The notes beneath the pieces are model-generated. The model was not told the DNA's origin and ran no database searches. It saw only the letters and a program-made list of their open reading frames with translations. A stretch of 64,000 nt of DNA from Gammaproteobacteria bacterium (GTDB lineage: Bacteria; Pseudomonadota; Gammaproteobacteria; Steroidobacterales; Steroidobacteraceae): contig VGUJ01000005.1 in assembly GCA_016874235.1 (NCBI GenBank), positions 1-64,000 of the forward strand, in the 5' to 3' direction. Each line of letters starts with the position of its first letter. Within the stretch, counting starts at the first letter, position 1. Positions 6,781 through 64,000 of this stretch are shown here, piece by piece. Made by a program: the position numbers and the translations under genes.

Positions 6781-6808
6781 GTCACCCCTTGAAAAGACGC
6801 GGGCTGGG

Positions 6809-7174: not shown

Positions 7175-7219
7175 CGTCAAATCCTCAAGAAAATCTCGCT
7201 GCGCTATCGCGCGCGAATG

Positions 7220-7687: not shown

Positions 7688-7705
7688 TGCCAACCCCCAC
7701 GCTCG

Positions 7706-8404: not shown

Positions 8405-8408
8405 GACA

Positions 8409-8930: not shown

Positions 8931-8945
8931 GTGAACAGCGGGGTA

Positions 8946-10058
8946 CTAAGCGCGACGCTCCGTCATGGATTTTCGATCCTCGAGATATTCACGGCCTTTT
9001 TCCATCAGCGCCGTGAATGCCTCAGCATCGCGTGACAACACCGAACGCCGGAGAGACTCGACGGCCTTCGCCAGAGCCTCGAGCGACTCCGCGCCGTAAT
9101 CATTGAGCGACTGAATTTCATAGTAGAGCTGCGGGCTTTCCTGGGCTACACGGGTTGCGACATCGAGCTGAGCATCGAACGTCGTACTCGAGAGTTTCGC
9201 GAGTCGGGGTGCTGCCTCACCGCTTTCAGCCAGCGCCGTGAAAAATGCAATGTTCAGCGCATGCGATAGTCCGAGCACATAGGCGATGAGTCGATCATGC
9301 TCATCAAGACTCATCACGACCTGCTCGACCATGGTTGGTGCAAACAATTCTTTGGTTTTGGCGAGCGCCTCGTCGTGACCGAGGTCGACGAAGATCACGT
9401 GCCGGCCCGACAATAGTTCGGTGTCGGGACCGAACATAGGGTGTACTGAAGTCACGCGGCAGCCGTGAGATTTGAGCGCCATCAGCCCTCCGCGCAGGGG
9501 CGACTTCAACGAACCGACGTCAAAGATGACACCTCGCGGTCGTCGCATTGCGAGCTCGCGCAGAACGGTGTCGGTGTACCCGAGAGGCGTCGCAACGACG
9601 ATGTAATCCTGCTCGAGTTCCGCCTGACGATAGTCACCGATTTCGCGCGTGCCTTCCGGCGCTCCAGCCGGATCGCTCACGTCGATTTCGAATCCCTGCG
9701 AAGCCAGGAACTCGACGAACCAGCGGCCGAGCTTGCCGGCGCCGCCAATGACGAGTGCGCGCCGTCCCGATCCTTGGCCGATGGCTGCGACGCTTGAGCG
9801 CTCCTGCGTCGTCAGCGAGCTTCGGATCAGCATGCGCATGAGATCCTCGGCGATGCGAGGCGAGACCCCCTGCGCCTGCGCCTCGGCGCGAGCCCCGAGG
9901 ATGACATCACGCTCGCGTCCGTAATCTCGAGTCGCGCGTCCAGTCGAACGCTTGACCCGCGCGATCTCTCCGCTGGTGCGCTGCCGATCGGCGATCAGCT
10001 CGATCAACTGTCGATCAATGTCGTCGAGATGTTTACGAAGCTCATCGAGGGTGGTCAT
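8946..10058 (-). CDS. tyrA: Bifunctional chorismate mutase / prephenate dehydrogenase
   Basis: Converts chorismate to prephenate and then oxidatively to 4-hydroxyphenylpyruvate for tyrosine. Residues 1-90 are an AroQ-type chorismate mutase ([19 protein letters not shown]), and residues from about 100 on are the NAD-binding dehydrogenase with [15 protein letters not shown] as the Rossmann loop and HPMFGP further in. This fused T-protein order matches E. coli TyrA (373 residues; here 370). Start is ATG at 10058. Confidence 0.95.
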
Positions 10059-10177
10059 GCGCTTGGGCTCGTGATGGGAACTGAAGGAGGGCCGATAGAC
10101 AGCCCCGACTTCTCTACTATAACTGCCCCGCGCTGATGGCTCGTACGCGAGGCCCGCAAGGCGGTATCATTCTGGCT

Positions 10178-10882
10178 ATGCCTATCCCCGTCCAGTTCTT
10201 GCCTGACCCCTTGCCTGCCGAACCGCTCTCGGTCGCCGCGTCCTGGCTCGAGACGGCGCGTACCCGGCGCGATCAGCCAAACCCGAATGCCATGGTGGTC
10301 GCAAGCGTCGGCGCAGAGGGTCAACCCTCCGCTCGTGTCGTCCTGTGCAAAGAGATTGTCGTCAACCCGGGATACATCTGCTTCTTCACCAACTACGACT
10401 CACGCAAGGGTCACGAGATTGAAACGCACCCGCGTGTCGCCATCGTGATGCATTGGGACCATCTCTACCGGCAAGTCCGCATTGAAGGTCGAGTCGTACG
10501 CGCTCCGGTCGCTGAGAGTGACGCGTATTTCAAGACGCGTCCGTGGCAGCGTCGCGTGGGCGCTTGGGCCAGCGAGCAAAGCAAACCCGTCGGATCTCGG
10601 GCGGATCTCGAAGCGGCCGTCGTCGCGGCGGCGCAGCGCTTCAACGTACCGGTGCCCGGCCCTGAAGATACGCCTGCGCCTGCGGGTCTCGGCGATCACA
10701 TTCCTCGCCCACCGCATTGGGGTGGGTATCACGTCTATGCCGAGGCGGTCGAACTCTGGGTCGAGGGCGAATCACGCATCCACGATCGTGCACGATGGAC
10801 ACGAAAATTATTGAGCGGCGCCGATGCTCAACAGCCGCCGACGATCGGCAGCGGATGGAGCGTGACGCGCTTACAGCCCTGA
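10178..10882 (+). CDS. pdxH: Pyridoxamine 5'-phosphate oxidase
   Basis: FMN enzyme that oxidises pyridoxine or pyridoxamine phosphate to pyridoxal phosphate. Conserved stretches are visible throughout: NPNAMVVASVG, RVVLCKEI, FFTNYDSRKGHEI, and the C-terminal RWTRKLL and RLQP. The ATG at 10178 gives 234 residues, slightly longer than E. coli (218); a 14-codon extension upstream looks unrelated. The stop lies 10 bases from the convergent phosphatase stop, with no obvious terminator between. Confidence 0.94.
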   Translation: MPIPVQFLPDPLPAEPLSVAASWLETARTRRDQPNPNAMVVASVGAEGQPSARVVLCKEIVVNPGYICFFTNYDSRKGHEIETHPRVAIVMHWDHLYRQVRIEGRVVRAPVAESDAYFKTRPWQRRVGAWASEQSKPVGSRADLEAAVVAAAQRFNVPVPGPEDTPAPAGLGDHIPRPPHWGGYHVYAEAVELWVEGESRIHDRARWTRKLLSGADAQQPPTIGSGWSVTRLQP

Positions 10883-10892
10883 CTGAGCCTGC

Positions 10893-11654
10893 TTAACGAA
10901 GTGCGGCGAGCAACGGCGCGTGCAAAACACCGTTGGTCGCGAGCACTGAGGTTGTCGCGAGACCCACGGGCATCCCATCGAGATCGGTGAATGTGCCACC
11001 CGCTTCCTCGACGAGTACCGTCAGCGCAGCGATATCGAGGATATTCACATCCGACTCGATCACCGCATCGAGCGCGCCTCGCGCGAGTAAGTGGTAGTGC
11101 ACGAAGTCACCATAACCCCGAATACGATTGACGCGGGCGACGAGCTCGCCGTAACGACTCCATCGCGGACCTGAGGCCAAAGTTTTGAGATTGCCGCTCG
11201 AGACGATTGCGGCATCGATCGCCTCGATGCCACTCACCCGAATACGCTGCTGGCCGAGCCACGCGCCCTCACCTCGCTCGGCCCAAGCAAATTCACCATA
11301 AGCCGGCGCAGAGGAGACGCCGAGTACCATGCGCCCGCCGCGCATCAGCGCGATTTGCGTCGAGAAGAACGGACACTCGCGCACGAACGACTTGGTACCG
11401 TCGATCGGATCGACGAGCCAGATACTCTCCGCATCCATATCGTGTTGACCCGTTTCCTCGCCAAAGAACCCATAGGCCGGAAAATGTTTCGACAGCACGC
11501 CATGGATGGCCTCTTCGGAGCGAACATCGGCCTCGGTCACCGGCGACTTGTCGGCCTTGGTCACGACCTGAAGGTTACGCTGGTACAAATCGCGAATGAC
11601 CTTGGCGGCGGCCTCGGCGGCTTCGATGGCGGCCTTCAGTTCTGCGGATGGCAC
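10893..11654 (-). CDS. hisN: Inositol monophosphatase-family phosphatase, probable histidinol-phosphatase
   Basis: Mg-dependent sugar-phosphate type phosphatase. The metal-binding motifs GEETG and WLVDPIDGTKSFV and the C-terminal DIAALTVLVEEAGG are intact in this 253-residue protein. The F-V-R form after the DPIDGT motif and overall similarity favour the HisN histidinol-phosphatase branch over SuhB or CysQ. That assignment rests on remembered family likeness and no histidine gene is adjacent, so the substrate remains uncertain. Confidence 0.8.
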   Translation of the reverse strand: MPSAELKAAIEAAEAAAKVIRDLYQRNLQVVTKADKSPVTEADVRSEEAIHGVLSKHFPAYGFFGEETGQHDMDAESIWLVDPIDGTKSFVRECPFFSTQIALMRGGRMVLGVSSAPAYGEFAWAERGEGAWLGQQRIRVSGIEAIDAAIVSSGNLKTLASGPRWSRYGELVARVNRIRGYGDFVHYHLLARGALDAVIESDVNILDIAALTVLVEEAGGTFTDLDGMPVGLATTSVLATNGVLHAPLLAALR

Positions 11655-11699
11655 GATTTGGTCCCGGGTCGATGAGTCTGGAGTGGTATCTTAAACGCC

Positions 11700-12260
11700 A
11701 TGGGAAACCGCTTGAGCAAGATCTACACCCGAACGGGGGACGATGGCACCACAGGGCTCGGTGACGGCAGCCGGGTCGCCAAGGACGACCCCCGTGTCGA
11801 GGCGTATGGCACCGTCGATGAGGCGAACTGCACCATCGGCATGATTCTGGCCGTCCCGGGGCTGCCGGCGGCCGTGATCGACTGCCTGATTGAGGTGCAG
11901 CACGATCTCTTCGACCTCGGGGGCGAGCTTTGTATTCCCGGGATGACGCTCATTCAGTCAGCGCATGTCGATCGGCTCGAAGCGGCGCTCGACGCCTTCA
12001 ACGACCCACTGCCCCCGCTCAAGGATTTCATCCTTCCCGGCGGAGGCCCCGCCTCTGGAGCCTGCCACCTCGCGAGAACCACCGTTCGCCGAGCGGAGCG
12101 TCGAGTCTGGACGCTGTCGGCCCAAAGCCCGATCAGCCCGGAGCCTGCGCGCTATCTCAACCGCTTGTCCGACCTGCTCTTCGTTCTCGCACGAGTCCTC
12201 GCTCGCCATGAAAATGGTAGCGAAGTCCTTTGGAACCGCGACCGAAAAAAGACGTCCTAA
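11700..12260 (+). CDS. Cob(I)alamin adenosyltransferase, PduO type
   Basis: Transfers the adenosyl group of ATP to cobalamin, making adenosylcobalamin. The N-terminal signature KIYTRTGDDGTTGLGDG and the helical core residues RRAERRVW and LNRLSDLLFVLAR are typical of PduO-type trimers; 186 residues is the usual length. The product is the cofactor of the class II ribonucleotide reductase encoded at 35502-38371, so the two genes are functionally linked though not adjacent. Start is ATG at 11700. Confidence 0.93.
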   Translation: MGNRLSKIYTRTGDDGTTGLGDGSRVAKDDPRVEAYGTVDEANCTIGMILAVPGLPAAVIDCLIEVQHDLFDLGGELCIPGMTLIQSAHVDRLEAALDAFNDPLPPLKDFILPGGGPASGACHLARTTVRRAERRVWTLSAQSPISPEPARYLNRLSDLLFVLARVLARHENGSEVLWNRDRKKTS

Positions 12261-12284
12261 GAAAAACGAGCTGACGTCGGGCCG

Positions 12285-13718
12285 TCAGTGTCGACTTGCG
12301 AGTACGCGCTCGTCGACTTCGCTCTTGATCTGCGTGCCGATTACGATCGAGAGCGCCAGCGCACACGCGAGTCCAGCAAAGGGCACCTGATAGCTGCCGA
12401 ACTCGTCAAACAGCTTTCCCGTGATCCAACTGCCAAGCCCGACTCCAATCGACTCCATGAAGCTGATGGAGCCGTTGATCCGGCCGATTTCGCGTAGTCC
12501 GAAATTGTTGACTGCGAGCATGTTGTAGAGCGTGAACAGACCACCCCATCCAAGCCCGATCACGATCGCCGAGATCGTCACCCACTCGCGTTTCATGCTG
12601 GCAAGACCTACGAGGCCGATAAACATGATCACGAGACAAGCCATGAAAACTTTGTGCCGATCGATTCGATCGGCGATGGCGCCGTTCGCAAGCTTCGCAA
12701 ACATGGCCACTAAGCTGAACAGAAAGAGCTGAAGCCCGGCTTCTTTGAGCGTGAAGCCGAACCCCTTGTTGAGATGCAGTACATAGTGCTGCACGAAAGA
12801 AAAGATCGCGAAGTAAGAAAGAAAGCCCGACAAGCCGATCGCCCAGAACGTACGCGTACGAATGGCTTGTTGAAACGTGAGGCCGTGCTGCTTGAGATCT
12901 CCGAGCGCCTCGTTCTGGCCCACCGCTTTGAAGCCGGCCTGTGCGGGGGTCCCACGAATCACGAAGAAGATCAGTACCAGCAATACGATCGGCATGAGCG
13001 AGTTGTAGAGATAGGCCTGCCGCCAACCGAAAGCCTCAATGAGATAGGGATTGACGAAAGGCAGCACTGCACTGCCGAGACTCGTGCCCATCAGGGCGAT
13101 ACCGATGGCGAGACCACGGTGTTTGACGAACCAGCTCGAGACCAAATAAATCACGGTCATCGAACCTGCGGTCGACAACGCAAGCGAGAACATCAAGTGG
13201 ATGAGATAGACCTGCTTGAGGGCGACCCCCATCCAGTTTTGTACGTAGAGCCACAGACCCAGGGCAGCCAGCACTACGGCGATGGCGATCGCCACGCTCC
13301 GGCTGAGGCCCGGGGCGAGTGAGCCGAGCGCCACCACCACGACACCCCCGAGCCCGATCGCAGTGATGACCGCGATGGCTTCGATGAGCGGGACCGGGCC
13401 ACCGTTCGCAATCAGGCTGTAGCCCACGTAACCGAGCGTCAACAGGCCACAGCCGGTCATCAGTAGGTACCGAGGATTGACCCGATCGATCAGGATGCCG
13501 ATGAAAGGCGCGATGGTGGCGGTCACGGCAAAGTTCAGAAAGTCGCGGAACTTGAAGTCCCCACGCGCCCAACCGAATTCATCGAGCAGCGAGGGATCGA
13601 AGATAGTGATGCCAGTGGCGGTCATGCCGTTCGAGAGGAAGAGCGCGAGCATCCCCATCACGGCGACGACCCAAGGATAATAACGAGGCGCTTCGCGCCC
13701 ACCGGCTGCGTTGTTCAT
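12285..13718 (-). CDS. MFS transporter, oxalate/formate antiporter-like
   Basis: Predicted 12-segment inner membrane carrier of about 477 residues. The sequence alternates hydrophobic helices with the MFS loop GAIADRIDRHKVFMA between helices 8 and 9, and the N-terminal loop GILIDRVNPRYLL resembles motif A. The general pattern resembles the oxalate/formate antiporter or monocarboxylate group. The ATG at 13718 follows GGGGG by 9 bases and starts just before helix 1; an extension of about 97 codons upstream would run through the bioA promoter and is rejected. Substrate unknown. Confidence 0.85.
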   Translation of the reverse strand: MNNAAGGREAPRYYPWVVAVMGMLALFLSNGMTATGITIFDPSLLDEFGWARGDFKFRDFLNFAVTATIAPFIGILIDRVNPRYLLMTGCGLLTLGYVGYSLIANGGPVPLIEAIAVITAIGLGGVVVVALGSLAPGLSRSVAIAIAVVLAALGLWLYVQNWMGVALKQVYLIHLMFSLALSTAGSMTVIYLVSSWFVKHRGLAIGIALMGTSLGSAVLPFVNPYLIEAFGWRQAYLYNSLMPIVLLVLIFFVIRGTPAQAGFKAVGQNEALGDLKQHGLTFQQAIRTRTFWAIGLSGFLSYFAIFSFVQHYVLHLNKGFGFTLKEAGLQLFLFSLVAMFAKLANGAIADRIDRHKVFMACLVIMFIGLVGLASMKREWVTISAIVIGLGWGGLFTLYNMLAVNNFGLREIGRINGSISFMESIGVGLGSWITGKLFDEFGSYQVPFAGLACALALSIVIGTQIKSEVDERVLASRH

Positions 13719-13775
13719 GAACAAGTACCCCCTTCGCCAGATCATACACGCACCGGAACGTGCCAAAATCACCGC

Positions 13776-15152
13776 ATGATCCACCCCTCGAACGCCGAGT
13801 TGCGCGCCCTCGACCTTGCGCACGTCTGGCACCCCTGTACGCAGATGAAGGATCACGAAGCGACCATGCCGCTCGTGCCCCTGCGTCGTGGTCAGGGCGT
13901 CTGGCTCGAGGACTACGACGGTCACCGCTATCTCGATGCAATCAGCTCTTGGTGGGTCAATCTTTGGGGTCATGCCAATCCGCACATCAATGCAGCCGTC
14001 AGCGCACAACTAGAACGCCTGCCACACGCCATGTTCGCGGGATTCACCCACGAACCGGGCGCTCAGCTCGCCGCGGAGCTCGTCGCGGTCGCCCCACCCG
14101 GCCTTAATCGTTGTTTCTTTGCGGACAGTGGATCAGCCTCGATTGAGGTCGCCGTGAAGATGAGTTTTCACTTCTGGCAAAACACCGGACGCCCCGGGAA
14201 AACTCGGTTCGTCACACTCTCGAACAGCTATCACGGCGAAACCTTGGGCGCGCTCGCCGTCGGGAGCGTCGAGCTCTACAAAGCGATTTACAAACCGCTC
14301 CTGATGGACGTCATCACCGTCCCATCACCCGACGCATTCACTGCAGAGCCCGGCGAGAGCTCAACCGACGTGGCGCGTCGACGCGCCGCCGAACTTGAGC
14401 AGGTGCTCGCAACGCAAGCTGATGAAGTTGCCGCCGTACTCCTCGAGCCGCTGGTTCAGTGTGCCGGCAACATGCGTATGCATGATCCGCTTTATCTCAA
14501 GCTTGTACGCGAGGCCTGCGATCGATACGGCGTTCACCTGATCGCCGATGAGATTGCGGTCGGTTTCGGACGAACCGGAACCTTGTTCGCGTGCGAGCAA
14601 GCAGAGATCACCCCTGATTTTCTTTGTCTCTCGAAAGGTCTCACGGCGGGCTATCTGCCGATGTCGGTCGTGCTCACGCGCGAATCGATCTACGCAGCGT
14701 TCTACGATGAATACGTGAAACTCAACGCGTTCCTGCACTCGCACAGCTACTCGGGGAACCCGCTCGCCTGCGCGGCGGCGCTGGCCTCACTACGACTTTT
14801 TCGCGAACGCGACGCGCTGAATGCGAACCGCGCATTGGCTGACTATCTGGGTGCTAAAACACGACGAGCCTTCGATGACCATCCGAACGTTGCCGAGGTA
14901 CGCCAGCGCGGCCTCATCGTCGCCGTCGAGTTCGTGCGAGATCGAAACACGCGTCGCAACTTCGATTGGCGCGAGCGTCGTCATCTTCATGTCTATCGTC
15001 ATGCGCTCAGCCGAGGCGTCTTGCTCAGGCCTCTCGGTAACGTCATCTACTTCATGCCGCCCTATGTCATCTCGCGTGAAGAGATCGACCTGATGGTCGA
15101 GGTGGCCAGAGAGGGGCTCGACCTCGCCGTTCGCGCGGAGGCCGCGGTATGA
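13776..15152 (+). CDS. bioA: Adenosylmethionine-8-amino-7-oxononanoate aminotransferase
   Basis: PLP enzyme of biotin synthesis that makes 7,8-diaminopelargonate with SAM as amino donor. Visible signatures include HVWHPCTQMKDHE near the start, SGSASIEVAVKMSFHFW, and the PLP lysine in FLCLSKGLTAGYLPMS. The length of 458 residues is normal. No other bio gene is in the window. It heads a tightly packed rightward operon and overlaps rsmE by 4 bases (ATGA). Confidence 0.95.
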   Translation: MIHPSNAELRALDLAHVWHPCTQMKDHEATMPLVPLRRGQGVWLEDYDGHRYLDAISSWWVNLWGHANPHINAAVSAQLERLPHAMFAGFTHEPGAQLAAELVAVAPPGLNRCFFADSGSASIEVAVKMSFHFWQNTGRPGKTRFVTLSNSYHGETLGALAVGSVELYKAIYKPLLMDVITVPSPDAFTAEPGESSTDVARRRAAELEQVLATQADEVAAVLLEPLVQCAGNMRMHDPLYLKLVREACDRYGVHLIADEIAVGFGRTGTLFACEQAEITPDFLCLSKGLTAGYLPMSVVLTRESIYAAFYDEYVKLNAFLHSHSYSGNPLACAAALASLRLFRERDALNANRALADYLGAKTRRAFDDHPNVAEVRQRGLIVAVEFVRDRNTRRNFDWRERRHLHVYRHALSRGVLLRPLGNVIYFMPPYVISREEIDLMVEVAREGLDLAVRAEAAV

Positions 15153-15889
15153 GGGAGATTCGGGTTTATGTCGACACCGCGCTCGAATCAGACCGTCGTG
15201 TCACCTTGAGTCCGCAGACCGCTCAGCACGTCAGCAAAGTGTTACGGCTTCGTGACGGCGCGACGCTTACCGCGTTCGACGGCCGCGGCGGCGAGTATCA
15301 CGCCATCCTCCGTCTGACGGGTCGTGAGGCAGTCATTGAGGTAGGCGACCATCGACTCATCGAGCGTGAATCGCCCTTGCGTCTCATCTTGTTACAGGCG
15401 CTCGCTCGCGGCGAGCGCATGGACTTCGTCATCCAAAAGGCAACGGAGCTTGGCGTTCACCGAATCATCCCGGTCGCGGCGGCGCGCAGTGTGGTCCAGC
15501 TGGATGCTGAGCGAGGAGACAAACGCGCTCACCACTGGCAGGCCGTCGCCGCCTCCGCGTGCGAGCAAAGCGGCCGCAATACGCTGCCGATCATCGATTT
15601 ACCGCAATCCTTCGAATCCGCCCTGGATTCGGTATCGAACATCGACTGCCGCCTGCTACTGCTTCCCGAGGCGAGCTCCTCCCTTGCGAGCGTCCTATCG
15701 ATCGCCGGACAACCTCAAGACATTGCGCTTCTCGTCGGTCCGGAGGGCGGCCTCGAGGAAACGGAGGTGGAGCGGGCCCTGGAGGTGGGCTTTCGGGCGG
15801 CCCGACTTGGCCCCCGGGTATTGCGTACAGAAACTGCGGGGCTTGCTGCGCTCTCCGCACTACAATGTCTCGCAGGAGACCTTGCATGA
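15149..15889 (+). CDS. rsmE: 16S rRNA (uracil-1498-N3)-methyltransferase
   Basis: SPOUT-fold enzyme that methylates U1498 of 16S rRNA with SAM. The N-terminal PUA-like part contains QHVSKVLRLRDG; the C-terminal knot has LLVGPEGGLEETEVE and RLGPRVLRTETAGLAAL, both diagnostic. It is 246 residues long and translationally coupled at both ends by 4-base overlaps with bioA and gshB. Confidence 0.95.
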   Translation: MREIRVYVDTALESDRRVTLSPQTAQHVSKVLRLRDGATLTAFDGRGGEYHAILRLTGREAVIEVGDHRLIERESPLRLILLQALARGERMDFVIQKATELGVHRIIPVAAARSVVQLDAERGDKRAHHWQAVAASACEQSGRNTLPIIDLPQSFESALDSVSNIDCRLLLLPEASSSLASVLSIAGQPQDIALLVGPEGGLEETEVERALEVGFRAARLGPRVLRTETAGLAALSALQCLAGDLA

Positions 15890-54474: not shown

Positions 54475-54915
54475 CTAGCCTTGATCCTTCGAGAGAAGCG
54501 CTCGAACGCCCTCCTCTATCTGGGTCATCATCAAAGAAAATCCATCGCTCTCCCCATAGTACGGATCGGGTACTTCCCGGTCACCCAAGAAAAGGCGAAC
54601 GGGTGTCTTGTTACCGGCTGGCCTCCTGGTTTCAAGCTGCGCCGCGTTATCGCGATCCATAGCAAGGATGATGTCGTGTGAAAGGTAATCGTCGTCAGTG
54701 ATTTCGCGACATCGAAACGCCGTTAGGTCGTATCCACGGGCCGTGCAGGCCTCAATAGATCTCGGATCTGCGGAATCCCCCACATGCTTGTCCTTGAGTC
54801 CCGCAGAACTGAACTGCCAGCCCGACGCCCCGCGACGAGCAGATATCGTTCGCGCAACGATCTCAGCAGCGGGCGAACGGCAATAGTTTCCTGCATCGAC
54901 GAACAACACTTTCAC
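54475..54915 (-). CDS. Low-molecular-weight tyrosine phosphatase homologue lacking the catalytic Cys
   Basis: A 146-residue LMW-PTP-fold protein. The phosphate loop is normally CxxxxCRS; here it reads VDAGNYCRSPAAE, so the nucleophile position (residue 7) is Asp, while Cys12, Arg13, Ser14 and the general-acid loop VPDPYYG (Asp117) are kept. The DNA reads GTC GAT GCA at this point, a clear Asp codon. The protein may be a pseudoenzyme, a phosphate-binding regulator, or an Asp-based hydrolase. GTG at 54915 follows AGGAG by 7 bases. It is 14 bases after dctP and likely ends that operon. Confidence 0.85.
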   Translation of the reverse strand: MKVLFVDAGNYCRSPAAEIVARTISARRGASGWQFSSAGLKDKHVGDSADPRSIEACTARGYDLTAFRCREITDDDYLSHDIILAMDRDNAAQLETRRPAGNKTPVRLFLGDREVPDPYYGESDGFSLMMTQIEEGVRALLSKDQG

Positions 54916-54929
54916 GTACAGACTCCTAC

Positions 54930-55976
54930 TCAGGAGGTCGACTTCAGCAATCCTGACTCACATTGGCGGACAGCGGCATCGACTCGCTCAAGCCAGTCGC
55001 CAGGATATTTGTTTCGATACCAATCACGTAACGGCGCTGTCGCCGCCTTGAACTCGGCGCGCTGCGCGTCGGTAACATAATCGATAGTACCTCCGCCGGC
55101 GATAAACTTTTCGATCGCGGGGCGCTCGCGATCCTTAGCTGCTTTTCGAGTTGCTGCCGCGAGCTCACCATATGCGATCGTTACGGCCGCCTGAATATCG
55201 GGCGGTAGTCGCTCCCAAGCTTTTTCCGAGTACCACCAAATCGCCGACATGTAACTATGACGATCGACGAAAACATGCTTGATGTGATCGTCAAACTTCA
55301 TGCCCATCACATCTTGAATGCTGTTTTTGGTGCCGGCGAGCATCCCCGCACCGAGCGCTGAATAAATTTCGGAGAACGGCAAGGCCATGGGACTGCCGCC
55401 GAGCTCTCTGACCATTTCCTGCTCAAGCGCGGACGGTAAGGTTCGAATGCGCAGCCCGTCGAGATCGGTAACCGACTTAATGCGACTTTCGGTCATCGCA
55501 AAGCTCCGCCAGCCACCGGTGTTTCCTACCGCCATCAGACGTAAACCCAGGCCATCTTTCAGCATGGCCTCGCCCATCGCCTTGGGTACGGGGCCATCCA
55601 TGACGCATTCCGCGATGTCGTCATTGGCAAAGAGATAAGGAAGATCGAGGACTTGCGCAGGACCGTAAAGCCCTGCGAGACCTCCGATCGTCGTCTGGTG
55701 AACCTCGAGGATTCCGCTTTGAAGTGCCTCCATGCACTCACGCTCGTTTCCACAAAACTGACCCGACGGATAAATCTGCACTTCGACTCGATCGCCAAGT
55801 TGTCGCTTGAGTGACTCGCGAAATGCGACTGCACCAATGTAGTCCTCGTCATCTTGGGATGCGAGGAACGCCACACGAATGGTGAACTCCGCTTGCTCGG
55901 CTCTAGAACTGAGGATGCCGATCACACATCCGATCGTGATTAGCACCAGCAACATATTTCGCAGTCTCGAAGTCAT
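54930..55976 (-). CDS. TRAP transporter substrate-binding protein (DctP family)
   Basis: Periplasmic solute receptor of 348 residues with an N-terminal signal segment (MLLVLITIGCVIGILSS). The body has the two-lobe DctP pattern, including YPSGQFCGNERECMEALQSGILEV, LDLPYLFAND and the substrate-binding Arg in DLDGLRIRTLPSA. This Arg usually binds a carboxylate or sulfonate, so the ligand is probably acidic. It follows dctM by 7 bases. The four cysteines are unusual for a small DctP. Ligand not assignable. Confidence 0.92.
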   Translation of the reverse strand: MTSRLRNMLLVLITIGCVIGILSSRAEQAEFTIRVAFLASQDDEDYIGAVAFRESLKRQLGDRVEVQIYPSGQFCGNERECMEALQSGILEVHQTTIGGLAGLYGPAQVLDLPYLFANDDIAECVMDGPVPKAMGEAMLKDGLGLRLMAVGNTGGWRSFAMTESRIKSVTDLDGLRIRTLPSALEQEMVRELGGSPMALPFSEIYSALGAGMLAGTKNSIQDVMGMKFDDHIKHVFVDRHSYMSAIWWYSEKAWERLPPDIQAAVTIAYGELAAATRKAAKDRERPAIEKFIAGGGTIDYVTDAQRAEFKAATAPLRDWYRNKYPGDWLERVDAAVRQCESGLLKSTS

Positions 55977-55983: not shown

Positions 55984-57270
55984 TCACATGAGATCGAGCA
56001 TGCGTGGGAGGGTCAGGACGAGAGAGGGAAAGAAAGTAATCAGGAAAATCACGAGGACTTCGACCGCCAAAAACGGTATGAGAGCTCGCACGATATTTTC
56101 GACTTTCTCTTTGGCTACAGATGCTGTCACGAACAGCAAAAGACCCATCGGCGGTGTGGCAAGTCCAATCGTCAGATTCACGCACATGATGAGCGCGAAA
56201 TGCACGGGATCAACACCCAAACCGATGAATACCGGAGAGAGAACGGGGCCCAAAATCAGAATGGCCGGTCCCGCATCGAGAAACATACCGACGACAAACA
56301 GCAGAAGGTTGAACAGAAACATCAGCAGATACACATCATCGGTGATCAGTAGCATGGCGTCGGCGATGCCCTTCGCAAGCCCGGAGACCGTGACAAGCCA
56401 ACCCAGCGTCACCGCCGCACCGACGAGCAGCAAAATCACTCCCGATTGCAAGGCGGTCGCTTTGAATATTGAGGCGAGCTCCGCCTTTCCGACGTTCCGC
56501 GTGACGACAATGGTGACGAACAGCGCGTAAGCCACGGCGACACTCGCGGCCTCCGTAGCCGTAAACACGCCGCTCAACATCCCGCTGAGCAAAATAACGG
56601 GCAATAACATCGCGAGCCACGCGCCCTTGAAGGCCGTACCCCGCTCGCTCCAACTGGCTCTCGGACGCGCGAGCGGAAGGTTGTACCGCTTGGCGAGCAA
56701 TCGAATAGTGCCCATCAACGCGAGCCCGATGATTATTCCAGGGACGACTCCCGCTGCAAAGAGCGCGCCGACAGACACGTTCATCACGAACCCGTACAAA
56801 ACCATGATGCCTGAGGGCGGAATAATGGGGCCAACCACAGCCGCCGCCGCGGTGACCGCTGCAGCGAAGGGGCGCGGATATCCTTCGCGCTCCATCGCCG
56901 GGATCATCATCTTGCCGATCGCCGACGCGTCCGCCACGGCGGAACCGGAGATCCCTGCGAAAATCATTGAAGACAGGACGTTCACCTGGGCCAGGCCGCC
57001 TCGCACATGGCCGACGAGGGACTGCGCAAAACGCACGATCGACGCGGTGATTCCACCCGCGTTCATGATCTCGCCAGCAAGAATGAAAAACGGTACGGCG
57101 AGCAGCGGAAAACTATCGATTCCGTTATAGAATCGGGCGAGTAATGCCGGAAAATACTGGGTCTCGCCGTCAAGCAGAAGACTCAAGCCCGGGCCAAGCA
57201 GCAACGCAAAGACCACCGGCGTACCAAAGGCCATCAGCAGGACGAGGAACCAGAAGAAGGCAGCGGACAT
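55984..57270 (-). CDS. TRAP transporter large permease (DctM family)
   Basis: Twelve-segment membrane component that moves the substrate with sodium. 428 residues with the standard features FPLLAVPFFILAGEIMNAGG, SGSAVADASAIGKMMIPAMEREGYPRPFAAAVTAAA and PPSGIMVLYGFVMNVSVG. It starts 3 bases after the dctQ stop. Confidence 0.94.
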   Translation of the reverse strand: MSAAFFWFLVLLMAFGTPVVFALLLGPGLSLLLDGETQYFPALLARFYNGIDSFPLLAVPFFILAGEIMNAGGITASIVRFAQSLVGHVRGGLAQVNVLSSMIFAGISGSAVADASAIGKMMIPAMEREGYPRPFAAAVTAAAAVVGPIIPPSGIMVLYGFVMNVSVGALFAAGVVPGIIIGLALMGTIRLLAKRYNLPLARPRASWSERGTAFKGAWLAMLLPVILLSGMLSGVFTATEAASVAVAYALFVTIVVTRNVGKAELASIFKATALQSGVILLLVGAAVTLGWLVTVSGLAKGIADAMLLITDDVYLLMFLFNLLLFVVGMFLDAGPAILILGPVLSPVFIGLGVDPVHFALIMCVNLTIGLATPPMGLLLFVTASVAKEKVENIVRALIPFLAVEVLVIFLITFFPSLVLTLPRMLDLM

Positions 57271-57273: not shown

Positions 57274-57837
57274 TCAGCTCTCCCCGTCTTTCTGCATCAG
57301 GGGCAGAACACCCACCAACACATCTTCTGTTTGTTCGGTCATCCAGGCTCGCGCCAAACGTAATGTCGCCTCCATCGCAACAAGCAATAAGGCACTTAGC
57401 GCGATTGGGACAATCACGTACACATCGGACATCGGGATTCCGAGTCCGGTCGACATGATCGTTGATCCTCGCGAGACGAAGTCGACGCTCTCAAGCAGGA
57501 ACATCAGACAAATCCAGCCAACGAGAAGATTCACGATAACGCCGGTGAGTTGCAGCACCTTCGGAGGCAGCCCTTCGATGAAGGCCGTGATGGCGACATG
57601 CCCGGCAGCGCGGTAGCCCATCGGCGCAGCGAGCAAGGCCGACCACACAAGCGCCATGCGTGCCGCCTCCTCCGCCCAATCAAGCGTATGGTTGAAAATG
57701 GCTCGCGAGAGAATTTGAGCAAGCGCAACAAGCAACATGAGCGCAAGCAGGATCGCGGAAAAAGAAAGCCCCCATCTTGCGATGGGGGCGTTCAGTTTTG
57801 CGAGACCTCGCAGCGCGAGGTCGATGATCTTCAACAC
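57274..57837 (-). CDS. TRAP transporter small permease (DctQ family)
   Basis: Four-segment membrane subunit that pairs with DctM, 187 residues. Helices are visible at about 20-40, 55-75, 90-115 and 135-160, with the conserved LDWAEEAARMALVWSALLAAPMGYR stretch. The start is GTG at 57837, with TGAGG only a few bases upstream; a TTG one codon later is possible. It follows the TonB-dependent receptor by 12 bases, which couples outer and inner membrane uptake in one transcript. Confidence 0.9.
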   Translation of the reverse strand: MLKIIDLALRGLAKLNAPIARWGLSFSAILLALMLLVALAQILSRAIFNHTLDWAEEAARMALVWSALLAAPMGYRAAGHVAITAFIEGLPPKVLQLTGVIVNLLVGWICLMFLLESVDFVSRGSTIMSTGLGIPMSDVYVIVPIALSALLLVAMEATLRLARAWMTEQTEDVLVGVLPLMQKDGES

Positions 57838-57849: not shown

Positions 57850-60150
57850 TTATTTGGTCCCGAAGTTGTAGCGCGCCTGAAGACCAAAGTAACGATCGGC
57901 ATCGCGCGGAATCTGCAAACGCACCGCGCCACCCGGGCCGCCACTCGTCTTGAGCACGGTGTAAGCCTCATCCGTCATGTTGCGACCGATCAGAGCGATC
58001 CGGAAGCGATCGTCAGCATCGGTGAGTGCGATCGAGACGTCGACGGTACTGTACGACGGAATCTTCAGCGCAGTGGGCTCGTTGAGATCCGAGAAGCTAT
58101 CGTCTTGATACGCCCAAACCACATTCGGGGTGAGCGTGAACGTGCCCATCGGGATGTTGAGCTCACCCACGAGCGAGGCCTTCCACTCCGGAGCAAGCGG
58201 CAGCTTGGTTCCCGAACGAACCGAAGGGGTCGAACCGGGCGGCGTGAAGAAATTGTCGACCTTCGCGTCGTTGTAAGCGATGCCGGCGCCGAGCGTCAGC
58301 ATGCTGTTCGGACGCGCTTGGATGTCCACTTCCCAACCGCTCGAGGAGACTTCACCGGCATTCGTCAGCGTCGTGATGAGCGTGCCGTTCAAGAACGTGA
58401 AGTTGTTGGCTTGGAAGTCATCGTACTTCGCGTCGTAGATCGCGGCGTTGACGAGTACGCGTCCATCGAACAGCGTGCTCTTGATGCCTGCTTCATAGGA
58501 GTTGGCGGTTTCGGCTTCGATGAGCGGCGTGTTGTTCACCGTCATGTTGAAGAACACGTTGTATGCCGGGCCCTTGTATCCACGCGCGTAAGACGCGTAC
58601 ACCATGACATCGTCGGAGACGTCGTATTGCAATCCCGCGCGACCCGACGCGTTATCCGAGGAGTTTCTGCCTGTGAAATCCGAACGGTCTGTACGGATAC
58701 CAGGCTGCCCGGAGAACGTCGTAGGCGTGCGATTGTGGAAATAGCTGAGTGCGTCCGAGGTCCATCGGACACCACCAATCAGACGCAGGCGATCGGAGGC
58801 GTTGAATGTCCCGTCAGCGAAAACAGCCAGATTTTTGAAATCCGCTCCGAATTTTGCGTTGGAGAACGTGCTCACGTAAGTCGAGGAGCCCGAGCGGCAG
58901 GGACGCTGGCCGGTGGAATCGACAGCGAGCGTACTCGCGGTGCAATTGAAGATATTGCGCTGGAAGAAACGCTCGGAGTCCGTCTTCGAGAAATACATGC
59001 CGAGGACATAGTCGACGGTCTCGCCGCCCTTCGAGGCGTAACGCATTTCTTGAGAGAAGGTTTTGGTCGTCTGCGGACCGTAGTCGTGCAGCTGCGCGAA
59101 GCCGTTGCCGACATAAGGTGCTGGTGTGTCGATCCAGTCGCCTTCGCGGAACTCGGTGGCATCCCAGGTTCGATAGGCCGTGATCGTCGTGATCGTGCCC
59201 GACCCGACATCGATGTCGCCGGAGAGCGACATGCCCCAAGCCTCTTCGGTCGAACGCATTTGCAGATCTTGCTTGACCTGGCGAGTCTCGTCGCCGGCAA
59301 ACGTCACACCGCTATACAAGGTGCCATACGCGAGCGCGGTACCGCCGGTCGGAGCGGTGCCAATGACCTCGACGCAGCAGTTGTCATCGGAGCTGCGGAA
59401 GTCACCCGAGAAAACCCAGTTGCTGTTATCGCCATCGAACTCCCAAACGGTGCGAACGCCTTGGCGCTTGTAACCGTTGAGGTCGCCGCGAGCGGCTGTC
59501 GAGGTGACGTTGTCGATGTAGCCATCGAACTCGCTACGCATGATCACAGTACGCGAACGAATGGAGTCGCTGATGGGCGAGTCGTACGCGGCTTTGATCC
59601 GCATTTCATTGCCCTCGAACCAACTGACGTCGAGGTACCCGCCCATCGTTTTTCCGGGACGCTTGGTGACGATGTTCACGACACCGGCCGAAGCATTCTT
59701 ACCGAACAGCGTGCCCTGAGGGCCACGCAGCACTTCGATGCGCTCGAGGTCGTAGAGATCACCGAAGGCCTCGCCGGCCGATGAGAGCACGACGCCATCG
59801 AGGACAGTTGCGACGCTGGGCTGCGCGGCGATCGCGAAGTTGATGGTGCCGACACCACGCAGGAACAACGACTGGTTCAGCGAGGTGTTGGTCTTTCGGA
59901 TATTCAAGGAAGGGACAAGTGTGCGCAGGGCTTCGATGTTGAAGCTGCCCGATGCCTCGGCGAGATCGCCGGTCACGACCGAGACGGCGATGGGTACGTC
60001 TTGAAGTCGCTGTTCGCGCTTCTGCGCGGTGACGACGATTTCATCGAGACGGCCTTCGTCTTGAGCCAGTGACGCCAACGGAAAAACAGCGGCACACGTG
60101 GCGACCGCCACGGCTCTCGCGACGATCTTCTTGCTATTCAGCTTCGGCAT
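57850..60150 (-). CDS. TonB-dependent outer membrane receptor
   Basis: Outer membrane uptake channel of 766 residues. After a signal peptide ending near residue 29 comes the TonB box and plug start DEIVVTAQKREQRLQDVPIAV, the plug motif LERIEVLRGPQGTLFGKNASAG, and a beta barrel ending in Phe/Tyr-rich ...RYFGLQARYNFGTK. No N-terminal STN signalling domain is present. GAAGGGG precedes the ATG. A palindrome lies upstream at 60230-60256. Substrate class is inferred only from neighbours: a GH31 glycosidase and an isomerase. Confidence 0.94.
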   Translation of the reverse strand: MPKLNSKKIVARAVAVATCAAVFPLASLAQDEGRLDEIVVTAQKREQRLQDVPIAVSVVTGDLAEASGSFNIEALRTLVPSLNIRKTNTSLNQSLFLRGVGTINFAIAAQPSVATVLDGVVLSSAGEAFGDLYDLERIEVLRGPQGTLFGKNASAGVVNIVTKRPGKTMGGYLDVSWFEGNEMRIKAAYDSPISDSIRSRTVIMRSEFDGYIDNVTSTAARGDLNGYKRQGVRTVWEFDGDNSNWVFSGDFRSSDDNCCVEVIGTAPTGGTALAYGTLYSGVTFAGDETRQVKQDLQMRSTEEAWGMSLSGDIDVGSGTITTITAYRTWDATEFREGDWIDTPAPYVGNGFAQLHDYGPQTTKTFSQEMRYASKGGETVDYVLGMYFSKTDSERFFQRNIFNCTASTLAVDSTGQRPCRSGSSTYVSTFSNAKFGADFKNLAVFADGTFNASDRLRLIGGVRWTSDALSYFHNRTPTTFSGQPGIRTDRSDFTGRNSSDNASGRAGLQYDVSDDVMVYASYARGYKGPAYNVFFNMTVNNTPLIEAETANSYEAGIKSTLFDGRVLVNAAIYDAKYDDFQANNFTFLNGTLITTLTNAGEVSSSGWEVDIQARPNSMLTLGAGIAYNDAKVDNFFTPPGSTPSVRSGTKLPLAPEWKASLVGELNIPMGTFTLTPNVVWAYQDDSFSDLNEPTALKIPSYSTVDVSIALTDADDRFRIALIGRNMTDEAYTVLKTSGGPGGAVRLQIPRDADRYFGLQARYNFGTK

Positions 60151-60260: not shown

Positions 60261-62270
60261 CTAGACCCGCCGGAACGCAGCGATGCGCGCGAGCGGCAGT
60301 CGGAGTTCAAGAACCTGGCCGCCGGAGATGGGCTCGCCGGAGTCGAGCCAAGCCCAACGCCCTTGTGGCAAGTAAACCGTGACCCGCCCTTCCGGGTTGA
60401 GGCAGGGCGCGACCAAGATCTCGTCACCAACAAAGAATTGATCCTCAAAGGCCCAGGACGCTTTGTCTTGCGGACAGGCCAGTACCATCGGCCGCTGAAC
60501 GGGCAAACCCGTTGCTGAAGCCTGAGCCACAACGGTTTGGAGATACGGTCGCAACCGCTCGCGCAGATCGAGTGCCTCTCTCGCGAGTGTCTCGGCCTCA
60601 GGCCCGTAACTCCAGGGCTCGCGCGGACCGATGCCATGCAGTCGCAGATGAGCGGAAAACACCGCCGCCTGCAGCCAACGTACGTATAGAACCGGATCGC
60701 GTTGGTCGCCGTAGAAACCGCCCACATCGGTCGCATAAAACGGCGCGCCGGTCAGCCCCCACGACAAACCACTGCGTAAATTTCCGGCGAGTCCGCCCCA
60801 GTCGGCTTGCGGATCTCCGCCCCACTGCGAGGGATAGCGCTGCGAACCCGACCAACCTGCACGGCTGAATAAAAACGCTCCGTTTCGGGAGTACTTCGCA
60901 GCGGCCTCGTACACACAGCGGTTGTAAAGCAGCGCGTAAATGTTGTGGAGCGCGTCGCCGCTCGATCCGTCGCTCGCGATCATGTGTTCTTCGATTTGCT
61001 CACCGAAGTCGGCCTTGATCATGTCGATGCCAAGGTCAAAGAGCGCCTTGTGCTGATCGCGCCACCACGCGTACGCCTCGGGGTGCGTGAAGTCGAGCAG
61101 CCCCGAATCTGGGAGTTGAGTGAGCACAGCTCCGAAAGGCTCGGGATCCCAGGCATATCGATATGCCTCTCCGGTGCGCGTATCGCGAATCAACCAGCCT
61201 TTGTCTGCAAGCGTTTTGAACAGTGGATGACGAACCGAGATCAGCGGGTACTCCCATACGCAGATACGGAAACCCATCTCTCGCAATGCATCGACGGTCG
61301 GTCGTGGGTCGGGATAACGCTTAGGGCACCACTCGAAAGCAAAACGCGTGTCGGTATCCTGCCAAGCGCGACCATCGAAAGTGATGACCTCGCATGGCAT
61401 GCCACGACGACGCACTTCGCGCGCGACCGACAAGATTTCTTCGGAATCTTTGTAGTACGCCTTGGAGAGGATGACCCCGAGACTCCAATCCGGTGGCACG
61501 GGAGCTCGGCCGGTAAGTGAGGTGTATTGCGCAAGCTGATCGGCACCCGTGCTCCCCGAAAAGAGGAATACATCGAGCGCAGAGTCTTCGATATCGAGCA
61601 CGTACGCACGTTGCGACCATGGTCCGAAGCCGACTCCGTGGGTCACCGGCGCCGGCGTATGCACGAACGCGCCCCAACCCTCAGGGCTCCAAGCGAAGGG
61701 CGCGTTTTTATAGCTCCACTCCGCATTAAGCCCGAGCGCATCTCGGTTATAGGAGCGAATCAATTGCCCTCGCTTATCGAGCCGCCCGGACTTTTCGCCA
61801 AGACCGTAGACAGGCGTCGAAGGTCCGAGCTCCAACGACAGCAACCACCGATCGTCGTGGCGCGCGAGCGGCGGCAACCTGAAACGTCGAATGAAGTGAC
61901 CGTCGCTCGGAGAACCTTGAACAAACCGCCCGTCACGGAGAAAAACGAAACTGAACGGCGCATGACCAATCGTGACGACGAGTTGAGACTCATCCGTAGC
62001 GACAGCTTCGAGGCGGCTGTTGGCCGTATCGCCCTCTCCGTGATGACTCAGCACTGCCGAGAGCGGGCGGACGTCGCCACAAAGAATGCCGTACTCGCGA
62101 ACGTCTCCCTGACTGCGCAATCGCATCCCGTGCTCATGAAGCGTGATGCGCAACACGCCCACAGAGGTCGGAACCATCAGCACATTGTCTGAGAGTGTCG
62201 GTATTCCCTCGATGCGGGCAGACGCCATTCGGCCCCAGTGAGGCGCGACGGGATCAAAAACCGTTTGCAT
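60261..62270 (-). CDS. Glycoside hydrolase family 31, YicI-like alpha-glycosidase
   Basis: Retaining alpha-glycosidase, 669 residues, no signal peptide. The catalytic nucleophile is Asp421 in MIKADFGEQ and the acid/base is Asp486 in SQWGGDPQADW, a spacing like that of E. coli alpha-xylosidase YicI (Asp416/Asp482). Other family matches are ICVWEYPLISVRHPLFK and the C-terminal LPQGRWAWLDSG. The Gln-Gln-Arg-Trp-Tyr set of sulfoquinovosidases is not apparent by eye, and the KxDFGE form favours an alpha-xylosidase or alpha-glucosidase. The ATG at 62270 follows AGAGG by about 6 bases. Probably acts in the cytoplasm after transport. Confidence 0.88.
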   Translation of the reverse strand: MQTVFDPVAPHWGRMASARIEGIPTLSDNVLMVPTSVGVLRITLHEHGMRLRSQGDVREYGILCGDVRPLSAVLSHHGEGDTANSRLEAVATDESQLVVTIGHAPFSFVFLRDGRFVQGSPSDGHFIRRFRLPPLARHDDRWLLSLELGPSTPVYGLGEKSGRLDKRGQLIRSYNRDALGLNAEWSYKNAPFAWSPEGWGAFVHTPAPVTHGVGFGPWSQRAYVLDIEDSALDVFLFSGSTGADQLAQYTSLTGRAPVPPDWSLGVILSKAYYKDSEEILSVAREVRRRGMPCEVITFDGRAWQDTDTRFAFEWCPKRYPDPRPTVDALREMGFRICVWEYPLISVRHPLFKTLADKGWLIRDTRTGEAYRYAWDPEPFGAVLTQLPDSGLLDFTHPEAYAWWRDQHKALFDLGIDMIKADFGEQIEEHMIASDGSSGDALHNIYALLYNRCVYEAAAKYSRNGAFLFSRAGWSGSQRYPSQWGGDPQADWGGLAGNLRSGLSWGLTGAPFYATDVGGFYGDQRDPVLYVRWLQAAVFSAHLRLHGIGPREPWSYGPEAETLAREALDLRERLRPYLQTVVAQASATGLPVQRPMVLACPQDKASWAFEDQFFVGDEILVAPCLNPEGRVTVYLPQGRWAWLDSGEPISGGQVLELRLPLARIAAFRRV

Positions 62271-62294
62271 GGACACCTCTCGAAAACGAAGCGC

Positions 62295-63707
62295 TTAGGC
62301 CAGCTCCAGCACAGGGATACCCCAGCGGAGCGCCAAAGCGCGCAAGGCGTCTCGATGATCACCGTACGCCAAGGCAAAGTGATGCTCGAGCGCTTCGTCG
62401 AGAATCCGCGTACTGACCTCTTCCGCAGGCTTGTCGAAACGTACCGTGCCCGAACAGCCGGTAAAAGCCATCGGAGCCCGGATGACTTCAGCTCCCGCCA
62501 GTACGAGCTTCAATGAATTACGCGAGCGCGAGAGGCGTGCAAGGGTGATTCGGCCTGGCTTGATCGGAAACTGATGCAACAATGGCATGCGCCGATTGGT
62601 GTGGATCGTCGCTTCGGGTTTGACTTCTGGATCGCACATTGAGATCGGCGCAAGCCCGCAGTGCCACAATACGGCCGTATTGTCCGCTGCAGTGATATCG
62701 ACGAGGTCGGCCATCCACGCCGGCTCGCCGGCGAGCTCCTGCAAAATGAGTTGCGTCACCGATCCATTGACGTCGGCCTCACAGGCCGAGGGAACCTTCT
62801 TTTGGTTCATCATGGCCATCGGTCCACACGCGGCACAACCATACTCGGTGAACATCTCGGGCCAACACCGCACCGCAAGACCGCGCGCGCCCGTATCTCG
62901 CTGCACATCTTCGAGCGCACAGAAGACACGGAATGATCGGTCGAGTTGCTCGGCGTCGACTTCCCCCAGCCCCGCGACCTGCGCCTCGGCTCGATCTTTA
63001 GCCGCTGCCACACGATTGGCATCGGTCGATCGAGCGCGATCGAAGAGGTTGCCGAGCGTGACATGATCGACCTTGATGTTGGCGAGACGAGCCAGAAGAT
63101 CGGGATCGAACTCGCAGGTGTCGAACCCGTCGGGATGCTTCCCGACTACCGTAATGCGCGAATCAGCGAGCGCACCCAATACTCGATCCGCGGCACGCTC
63201 GGCGTCTGCTCGAACGCGAGTCGCAAGATTTGCCGCGCTAGCTGTGGTCTTGGGTAATGCATGCGATCGCGACAAGGCACGCAGACTCTCTGCGAGGCCG
63301 GGCGCCGACGGATCGGCATACAACGACGCGTGAGCTACGCCGGCACGACCTAATGCATGCGCTGCGAGATTGAGCCCGCAGTAAGCATTGAGACGCAAAC
63401 GTCCTCCGATGCGGGGCTCAGGCAGCGCCCAAATGGCAAGCGGTGTCTTGGCTTCTTTGGCAAGCTTGACCGTCATCGTGGCGTCGGTGAACGTCACCTG
63501 CAAAATTAGAAGCAGATCAATCGGCCCCGACGCTGTGATATTGGCGATCGCACGCTCGGCAGCATCACGATCAAACAACAATTCACGAGTTCCGACCGTG
63601 CGGATGCCGGCAGCCTCAAGCGCGGTAAAGGCGCGATTCTTTGTTTCTTCCGCAAAGGGCACATCGAACGTCGGCCGCGCGAGCGCCGCGACACCAAAAG
63701 TCAGCAT
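62295..63707 (-). CDS. L-fucose/L-arabinose isomerase-fold protein
   Basis: About 470 residues of the fucose isomerase-like superfamily, predicted to interconvert an aldose and ketose with a metal. The N-terminal part (LTFGVAALARPTFDVPFAEE) and the central CGPMAMMNQKKVPSACEADVNGSVTQLIL are typical. It is more distant from true AraA or FucI, so the sugar cannot be named. The ATG at 63707 has GGAG about 9 bases upstream, inside the end of the aldolase gene, and follows its stop by 4 bases. It lies 24 bases before the GH31 start. Confidence 0.8.
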   Translation of the reverse strand: MLTFGVAALARPTFDVPFAEETKNRAFTALEAAGIRTVGTRELLFDRDAAERAIANITASGPIDLLLILQVTFTDATMTVKLAKEAKTPLAIWALPEPRIGGRLRLNAYCGLNLAAHALGRAGVAHASLYADPSAPGLAESLRALSRSHALPKTTASAANLATRVRADAERAADRVLGALADSRITVVGKHPDGFDTCEFDPDLLARLANIKVDHVTLGNLFDRARSTDANRVAAAKDRAEAQVAGLGEVDAEQLDRSFRVFCALEDVQRDTGARGLAVRCWPEMFTEYGCAACGPMAMMNQKKVPSACEADVNGSVTQLILQELAGEPAWMADLVDITAADNTAVLWHCGLAPISMCDPEVKPEATIHTNRRMPLLHQFPIKPGRITLARLSRSRNSLKLVLAGAEVIRAPMAFTGCSGTVRFDKPAEEVSTRILDEALEHHFALAYGDHRDALRALALRWGIPVLELA

Positions 63708-63711
63708 GGCT

Positions 63712-64000
63712 TCAATCTCCGAATCCTGGATAGACGTGTCTGAAACTGGCATCGGCCGGCACGATTCGAGCACCACCCTCGCCGTACACCGAGTGGTGGT
63801 TCCACGGTGTGGCCTCTTTATCGGTGAGAACATTGAGCGAGCGCATGTACTCGACGGCCTCGCCCCTCAAGCCGCTTCGAATAGCCTCCCAATCTGGGAA
63901 GTGGGTGAACGCTTTCGACCAAATCGCTCGACCTGCGAGATATCCCGACGCGCCCGCTCGGTAGGCATGCGACAAAATTCGGCGGAATTCGTCCATGCCG
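63712..64000 (-). CDS. Class I aldolase of the LacD/YihT type, 5' end beyond the window
   Basis: Only the last 95 or so residues are present. YRAGASGYLAGRAIWSKAF is the C-terminal barrel motif of tagatose-bisphosphate and sulfofructose-phosphate aldolases; an extension of about 35 residues (PWNHHSVYGEGGARI...) follows. The open frame continues through the window edge, so the ATG at 63996 is internal. It is the most upstream gene visible in the leftward catabolic operon. Confidence 0.75.
   Translation of the reverse strand, partial: GMDEFRRILSHAYRAGASGYLAGRAIWSKAFTHFPDWEAIRSGLRGEAVEYMRSLNVLTDKEATPWNHHSVYGEGGARIVPADASFRHVYPGFGD

Follow-up and report, generated by a model that had tools for sequence, protein, structure and literature searches.

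Aspartate in place of the catalytic cysteine in a low-molecular-weight tyrosine phosphatase homologue encoded in a probable sulfoquinovose operon

What does a tyrosine phosphatase homologue do in a bacterial operon when its catalytic cysteine is replaced by aspartate? The question is raised by a gene on the minus strand at positions 54475..54915 of the window, the 64,000-nucleotide stretch of Steroidobacteraceae contig VGUJ01000005.1 that was analysed here. The gene, the last of its operon in the window, has a GTG start and runs uninterrupted for 146 amino acids to its stop codon. Its product, here called AspPTP (Asp-substituted LMW-PTP homologue), matches the Pfam family LMWPc with 103.7 bits against a cut-off of 23.2, over profile positions 1–144 of 144, and this is its sole Pfam match at E ≤ 0.001. 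The phosphate-binding loop (P-loop) reads VDAGNYCRSP and has, near its start in the translation, Asp-Ala-Gly at codons 7–9 (54889..54897, minus strand), where GAT occupies the position of the nucleophilic Cys. Cys12 and Arg13 are present, and the general-acid loop VPDPYYG comprises residues 115–121. The first-pass annotation had called the protein an LMW-PTP homologue with Asp for the catalytic Cys at residue 7, an assignment borne out by the open reading frame, its translation, the Pfam match and the group and tree described below.

The full-length match and the predicted fold place AspPTP in the LMW-PTP family (PF01451). Two features of an active enzyme are absent: the nucleophilic Cys of the C-x5-R-S/T signature is Asp in 16 of 16 group members, and the aromatic Trp/Tyr49 pocket residue is Lys in all 16 (Lys43, aligned with Trp49 of human LMW-PTP, PDB entry 1xww). 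Two others, the P-loop Arg and the general-acid Asp, are invariant as Arg13 and Asp117. By profile, fold and alignment, AspPTP is therefore an LMW-PTP by descent that lacks the phosphatase nucleophile and fails the defining test of a phosphatase. The genome of origin (1.8 Mb in 27 contigs, 95% complete) encodes one other LMW-PTP, on contig C17, with the canonical Cys in the loop VCMGNICRSP.

When 200 genomes from this bacterial family were searched with the window protein, 150 had matches; of these, 12 genomes, the genome of origin included, are set apart: the other 11 encode proteins with 64–85% identity to the window protein, and the next matches reach at most 51%. The loop VDAGNYCRSP is found in all 12. 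Fifteen loci were obtained from a collection of species genomes scanned for VDAGNYCR and SAGLKDKH, 11 of them already among the genomes of the family search and four new, from Lysobacteraceae (L054), Rhodospirillales (L055), Alphaproteobacteria (L057) and Parvularcula (L058). The scan is biased towards loci with either peptide, a requirement that the family search did not impose. The whole group of 16 genomes spans 53–85% identity to the window protein.

The nucleophile position is Asp in 16/16 members of this group (codon GAT in 11, GAC in 5) and Cys in 43/43 other LMW-PTPs with the motif read. The latter comprise 18 family loci (L015–L032), the paralogue on C17, 20 further stretches and four sequences of genomes from other groups, and the count covers the part of the non-Asp family-search matches in which the motif was read. 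In a tree of 59 rows, calculated from an alignment that retained the P-loop columns, the 16 Asp rows form one side of a branch with support 100/99 and the 43 Cys rows the other; of the 44 Cys-side loci supplied, the partial match L115 is absent from the tree. Asp is thus common to close and distant homologues, and the pattern named beforehand as refuting a new role, a common Cys with a lone Asp, was not seen. SAGLKDKH, Asp7, Arg13, Asp117, Cys57 and Cys69 are invariant in all 16 proteins, and the general-acid loop reads DPY(Y/F)G, with DPFFG in L058. The claim that the Arg remains accordingly holds for the group, and the general-acid Asp is likewise kept throughout; the claim that the second Cys is kept holds for Cys12 in the window and fails in two of the 16 (L055 and L058), where the residue is Ser, so that Asp7 is better kept than the second Cys.

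All 16 reading frames are intact. Nei–Gojobori omega (dN/dS) is 0.04–0.23 for the six closest pairs within the group, and synonymous sites are saturated or nearly so in most pairs that include the window gene. These codon comparisons indicate that the group is under purifying selection, in line with the earlier statement that the gene is not simply decaying. A sequencing error or gene decay at codon 7 has a negligible chance of being the explanation, given the same Asp in 16 genomes, the use of both Asp codons, the near-saturated synonymous change and the intact frames; a lone mutation is ruled out on the same grounds.

An AlphaFold2 model of AspPTP, calculated from the 16-row alignment, has a mean pLDDT of 94.2 and a pTM of 0.90. 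Its best fold match in the PDB is the LMW-PTP 4lrq (Z-score of 24.9 and r.m.s.d. of 1.5 over 143 residues), and the matches listed are LMW-PTPs and ArsC relatives only; no sugar-enzyme fold is among them, which excludes nothing. The titles of several matched LMW-PTP entries name the sulfonates HEPES or MES as bound, one of them in the active site. In the alignment to 1xww, Asp7 corresponds to Cys12, Arg13 to Arg18, Asp117 to Asp129, Lys43 to Trp49 and His44 to Asn50; Cys69 corresponds to Ala74, and Cys57 to Leu63, which adjoins human Cys62. Residue 49 of LMW-PTPs presumably lines the pocket and stacks on the phosphotyrosine ring. As aligned, this aromatic wall is replaced in AspPTP by the invariant LKDKH loop with Lys43. 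The nucleophile and the aromatic wall are therefore lost; the Arg and the general acid are constant, as is a new, charged loop.

The genes that precede AspPTP lie on the same strand and, in the window, end 14 bases before its start with that of the TRAP solute-binding protein DctP (54930..55976, minus strand; Pfam DctP, E-value 5.4e-53). They continue, all on the minus strand, with the TRAP large permease DctM (55984..57270) and small permease DctQ (57274..57837), a TonB-dependent receptor (57850..60150), all three assigned from profile matches, a GH31 glycosidase (60261..62276; Pfam GH31, 5.9e-81), a fucose-isomerase-like sugar isomerase (62295..63833; NF048012, sulfoquinovose isomerase SftI, 8.3e-77) and the 3′ part of a DeoC/LacD-type, YihT-like aldolase gene (63712..64000; whole gene 63712–64758 of contig C5). 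The listed ATG of the isomerase overlaps the aldolase gene; several homologues match from about residue 43, and the start may lie nearer 63707. Past the window edge, the contig continues through the aldolase gene to genes for a PfkB kinase and a GntR-family regulator; SuyA-, SuyB-, ComC- and SlcC-like genes, GlpD and GlpK lie there in divergent orientation.

This layout recurs across the group. In 13 genomes of the 16, AspPTP is the gene immediately 3′ of dctP, in the same orientation, with a four-base overlap of the dctP stop and the AspPTP start in L034, L035, L037 and L040. The run isomerase–GH31–TonB receptor–DctQ–DctM–DctP–AspPTP is found on one contig in 10 of 16 (the window, L044, L045, L046, L048, L049, L050, L052, L054 and L056). 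In L047 the run is present from GH31 onward, to the contig edge. L051 and L053 have the locus over two contigs, and the L053 genome lacks a TonB receptor between GH31 and DctQ. The TRAP genes of L058 are on the opposite strand. In L055, AspPTP is accompanied by the isomerase, kinase, aldolase and GH31 genes and by ABC transporter genes, and TRAP/TonB matches are absent; in L057, no gene of the locus was found less than 10 kb from AspPTP. Examined for sulfonate genes, the L057 neighbours (4897–15473) match an SSADH-like aldehyde dehydrogenase, a Cds1-like L-cysteine desulfhydrase and TauE. Among the 200 family genomes, those with a DctP orthologue (E ≤ 1e-60) number 12 and are the very ones that have AspPTP, taking both searches as covering the same 200; the proposed co-occurrence with the TRAP operon was thus recovered. 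The isomerase has strong matches in 13 of these 200 genomes and weak ones in two; in the thirteenth, G177, the contig that carries it is 5.3 kb long and breaks off within GH31. Some isomerase matches carry one in-frame TGA (G100 C2 25862–27385, G020 C17 11107–12678 and G073 C25 40050–40805).

A further open reading frame follows AspPTP on the same strand with a four-base overlap in L034 (8288–9175), L035 (8161–9066) and L040 (10274–11089), and matches DUF1838 in the first two. The end-of-operon position given by the first-pass annotation is therefore right for the window and does not hold in every genome. Next to AspPTP in L033 (5964–8747) and L036 (10886–13684) lies a Ser/Thr protein kinase gene of about 930 codons, which is absent from the window.

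The description of the surroundings as a TRAP/TonB locus was accurate as to the genes present and too narrow, as the whole is very probably a sulfoquinovose (SQ)-type catabolic locus. Relatives of SF kinase and SFP aldolase, one mark of such a locus, are both present: over 305 amino acids the kinase has 40% identity to E. coli YihV, and over 300 the aldolase has 28% identity to YihT. The putative functional residues N109 and R138 of YihV are kept in the kinase of the genome of origin, and K193 and R253 of YihT, likewise putative, in 9/9 aligned rows. SftI (NF048012) is the only NCBIfam match of the isomerase, with 258.8 bits, below the cut-off of 700, and a PDB sequence search with the isomerase gave no match at E ≤ 0.001. 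On the same contig, the SuyA-like protein is a SAF-domain protein, the SuyB-like protein belongs to the altronate dehydratase family and the SlcC-like protein resembles PGDH; the ComC-like protein has L-sulfolactate dehydrogenase (NF040650; E-value 2.5e-57, below cut-off) as its best curated match. For the locus genes, the names SuyAB, ComC and SlcC are presumed ones, from family and context. SuyAB, ComC and SlcC are named together in the accessible text of PMC12421959. The upstream side, examined in six of the 11 other family genomes, has homologues of the aldolase, kinase, GntR regulator, SuyA, SuyB, ComC and SlcC in 6/6, and GlpD and GlpK in five; the last two were not found in L078.

All other genes of the locus, from AspPTP to GlpK, can plausibly be placed on a route from sulfoquinovosyl glycerol to pyruvate, DHAP and sulfite. 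The steps with no gene in the locus are SQ mutarotation, sulfolactaldehyde oxidation and sulfite disposal. Sulfolactaldehyde oxidation could be served by aldehyde dehydrogenases encoded outside the locus, for which the genome has seven matches, including a weak, interrupted one. The GH31 enzyme of the window matches the NCBIfam models alpha-xylosidase PRK10658, MalA and PRK10426, the last of which corresponds to YihQ, in that order and all below cut-off; it is 28% identical to YihQ and closer to the alpha-xylosidase YicI. Phe occupies the positions of the sulfonate-binding residues Trp304 and Tyr508 of YihQ in 12/12 GH31 rows. A YihQ-type signature was thus not found at these positions, and the enzyme may act on a different substrate.

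Whether AspPTP belongs with the transporter or with the sugar pathway can be judged from loci that have one without the other. An isomerase match (E ≤ 1e-30) was obtained for two of the 369 genomes sampled from the class and four of the 398 sampled from the phylum, the genome of origin being counted in each. The four other isomerase genomes, G365 (L095 and L096), G809 (L102), G843 (L100 and L101) and G621 (L103 and L104), have no AspPTP at these loci; all have the kinase and three the aldolase, which was not found in the G365 DNA examined. One gene of G621 is close to SqgA (E-value 4.5e-118 to PDB entry 8qc3); relatives of this gene are 67% identical in G809, 59% in G843 and only 35% in G365. 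In the accessible text of PMC10755693, 8qc3 is ArSqgA, and SqgA is an NAD-dependent sulfoquinovosidase of family GH188. In the DNA examined, these four loci have the GH188-like gene and lack a match to GH31, and AspPTP loci show the reverse. TRAP genes are present in G365, G809 and G621, whose own LMW-PTPs have Cys. A link of AspPTP to TRAP alone was therefore rejected: with L055 lacking TRAP and TonB genes, and with three TRAP loci lacking AspPTP, the protein is tied more closely to the sugar pathway than to TRAP. Probably, then, AspPTP is kept as a dedicated part of an SQ catabolic operon, with a new job in that pathway.

The pathway has one gap of note next to the isomerase. As described in the parts of PMC9594981 available, the fucose-isomerase-type enzyme SqvD needs open-chain SQ, uncatalysed mutarotation is slow, and SqvB, present in most SqvD clusters and replaced by YihR in some, is proposed as the supplier; an SQ mutarotase is shown in PMC5902678, likewise available in part. 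No match to PF01263, the YihR family, was found in the 95%-complete genome of origin. Among the 11 other family genomes with AspPTP, three have PF01263 matches, on contigs other than those of AspPTP, the isomerase and GH31. SqvB (PF16161) was not found in the genome of origin by a search whose control also gave no match. Epimerase relatives were absent from the AspPTP loci examined apart from one region, matched in L042 and L051 at E-value 1.8e-5 and judged spurious, the query being the strand opposite the PF01263 match of L092. In the related loci without AspPTP, PF01263 lies within the locus in G621 and G843 and on another contig in G809, and has no match anywhere in the G365 genome. This distribution, compared between the two sets of loci, fits a replacement of the mutarotase by AspPTP, itself a member of neither PF01263 nor PF16161 by Pfam profile search (E ≤ 0.001).

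With Lys43 of the invariant LKDKH loop in place of the aromatic wall residue, AspPTP is inferred to handle a sulfosugar and not a phosphoprotein. As the leading though tentative reading, AspPTP may open the SQ ring or interconvert SQ anomers, and the open-chain SQ would feed the fucose-isomerase-type enzyme. Lys41 and Lys43 at the rim would hold the sulfonate, and the acid and base at the anomeric carbon would be Asp7 and Asp117, the former general acid, together with His44. That the LMW-PTP fold has been converted in this way to a sugar enzyme with an Asp/Asp acid–base site, replacing YihR or SqvB, is a somewhat more doubtful proposition. Several observations count against mutarotation: a carboxylate in the anion hole may merely pair with Arg13 and close the pocket; SQ mutarotation also occurs spontaneously, and the role of SqvB is itself only a proposal; and with no PF01263 in G365 and a match on another contig in G809, AspPTP and mutarotase do not replace each other strictly. 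The replacement pattern is confounded by GH31 versus GH188 and by kinship, and the loci are few, which keeps both ring opening and the regulatory role discussed next well short of an even chance. The SQ-pathway role as such is called into question by the window GH31, which lacks the two sulfonate-binding residues of YihQ, and by the AspPTP of L057, which has no locus genes nearby.

The main alternative, suggested by the first-pass annotation as a phospho-binding regulator and possible in that form, is a pseudophosphatase: a non-catalytic AspPTP that binds a phosphosugar, a sulfosugar or a protein partner such as the kinase, aldolase, transporter or regulator, and modulates flux in the SQ operon. 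Loss of the catalytic Cys with retention of the family fold and Arg13 suits this role, as does the position of AspPTP as a conserved small operon protein with no assigned step, and tensin 1, with its natural Cys-to-Asp change (PMC9464862, in the accessible text), provides a precedent for a PTP relative with Asp. The Ser/Thr protein kinase gene next to AspPTP would offer a partner, but this neighbour was noted in two of 12 family loci and is absent from the window. Moreover, pure scaffolding does not obviously demand an Asp117 and an LKDKH that are invariant in 16/16, and the locus already has a GntR-family regulator. We consider such a regulator slightly less likely than ring opening or mutarotation, and a sulfosugar-handling role, with that step as its tentative form, is favoured over it.

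Catalysis by other means appears far less probable. HAD phosphatases form an acyl-phosphate on Asp, and AspPTP was earlier suggested as an Asp-nucleophile enzyme; by analogy, Asp7 would attack a phosphate or related group of SF-1-phosphate or another pathway ester. The invariance of Asp7, Arg13 and Asp117 and the sugar kinase in the locus are compatible with this. HAD enzymes, however, depend on Mg and have another kind of site, the side chain of Asp exceeds that of Cys in length and should repel phosphate, the aromatic wall is lost, and dephosphorylation of SF-1-phosphate would undo the kinase step of the locus itself, all of which makes the proposal very unlikely. At least as improbable is that another Cys has taken over as nucleophile or redox centre: Cys57 and Cys69, at the positions of Leu63 (next to human Cys62) and Ala74, are invariant in 16/16, but Cys12 is Ser in L055 and L058 and is therefore not essential.

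Should AspPTP act on SQ, a signalling-phosphatase fold would have moved into sulfosugar metabolism, a compact case that bears on how open-chain sulfoquinovose reaches fucose-isomerase-type enzymes. A gene encoding VDAGNY-(C/S)-RSP with SAGLKDKH can mark one such class of proteobacterial locus of the sulfoquinovose type, and annotation of proteins like this as tyrosine phosphatases is to be avoided. Neither an Asp-type LMW-PTP nor a sulfoquinovose operon with a tyrosine phosphatase relative was found among the titles and abstract openings listed in searches of open-licence PMC literature; the word phosphatase has no mention in the text available for PMC9594981, PMC12890257 and PMC13372026, and appears in that of PMC12421959 only for the alkaline phosphatase of an assay.

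Among known systems, the sulfoglycolytic EMP and EMP2 loci (the E. coli yih operon and the SqvD clusters, as far as covered by the accessible text of PMC9594981) share with the AspPTP locus a YihV-like kinase, a YihT-like aldolase, an SftI/SqvD-like isomerase and GH31; the AspPTP locus differs in adding a TonB receptor, TRAP uptake, sulfolactate-type genes and AspPTP, and no mutarotase gene was found in it. The SQ mutarotases YihR and HsSQM (PF01263; accessible text of PMC5902678) and SqvB (PF16161) have only the proposed role in common with AspPTP and belong to different families. Tensin 1, one of the pseudophosphatases of the PTP superfamily, shares the Cys-to-Asp change (PMC9464862, in the part available), whereas these proteins are eukaryotic, of another PTP class and set in a cytoskeletal or signalling context. 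Closest to AspPTP are the LMW-PTPs themselves (4lrq and human 1xww), with which it has in common a full-length sequence match, the predicted fold, the P-loop Arg and Ser and the general-acid Asp. Unlike them, AspPTP has Asp for Cys in 16/16, Lys at wall residue 49 and an invariant LKDKH of its own, and 15 of the 16 genomes have it in association with a locus for sugar catabolism.
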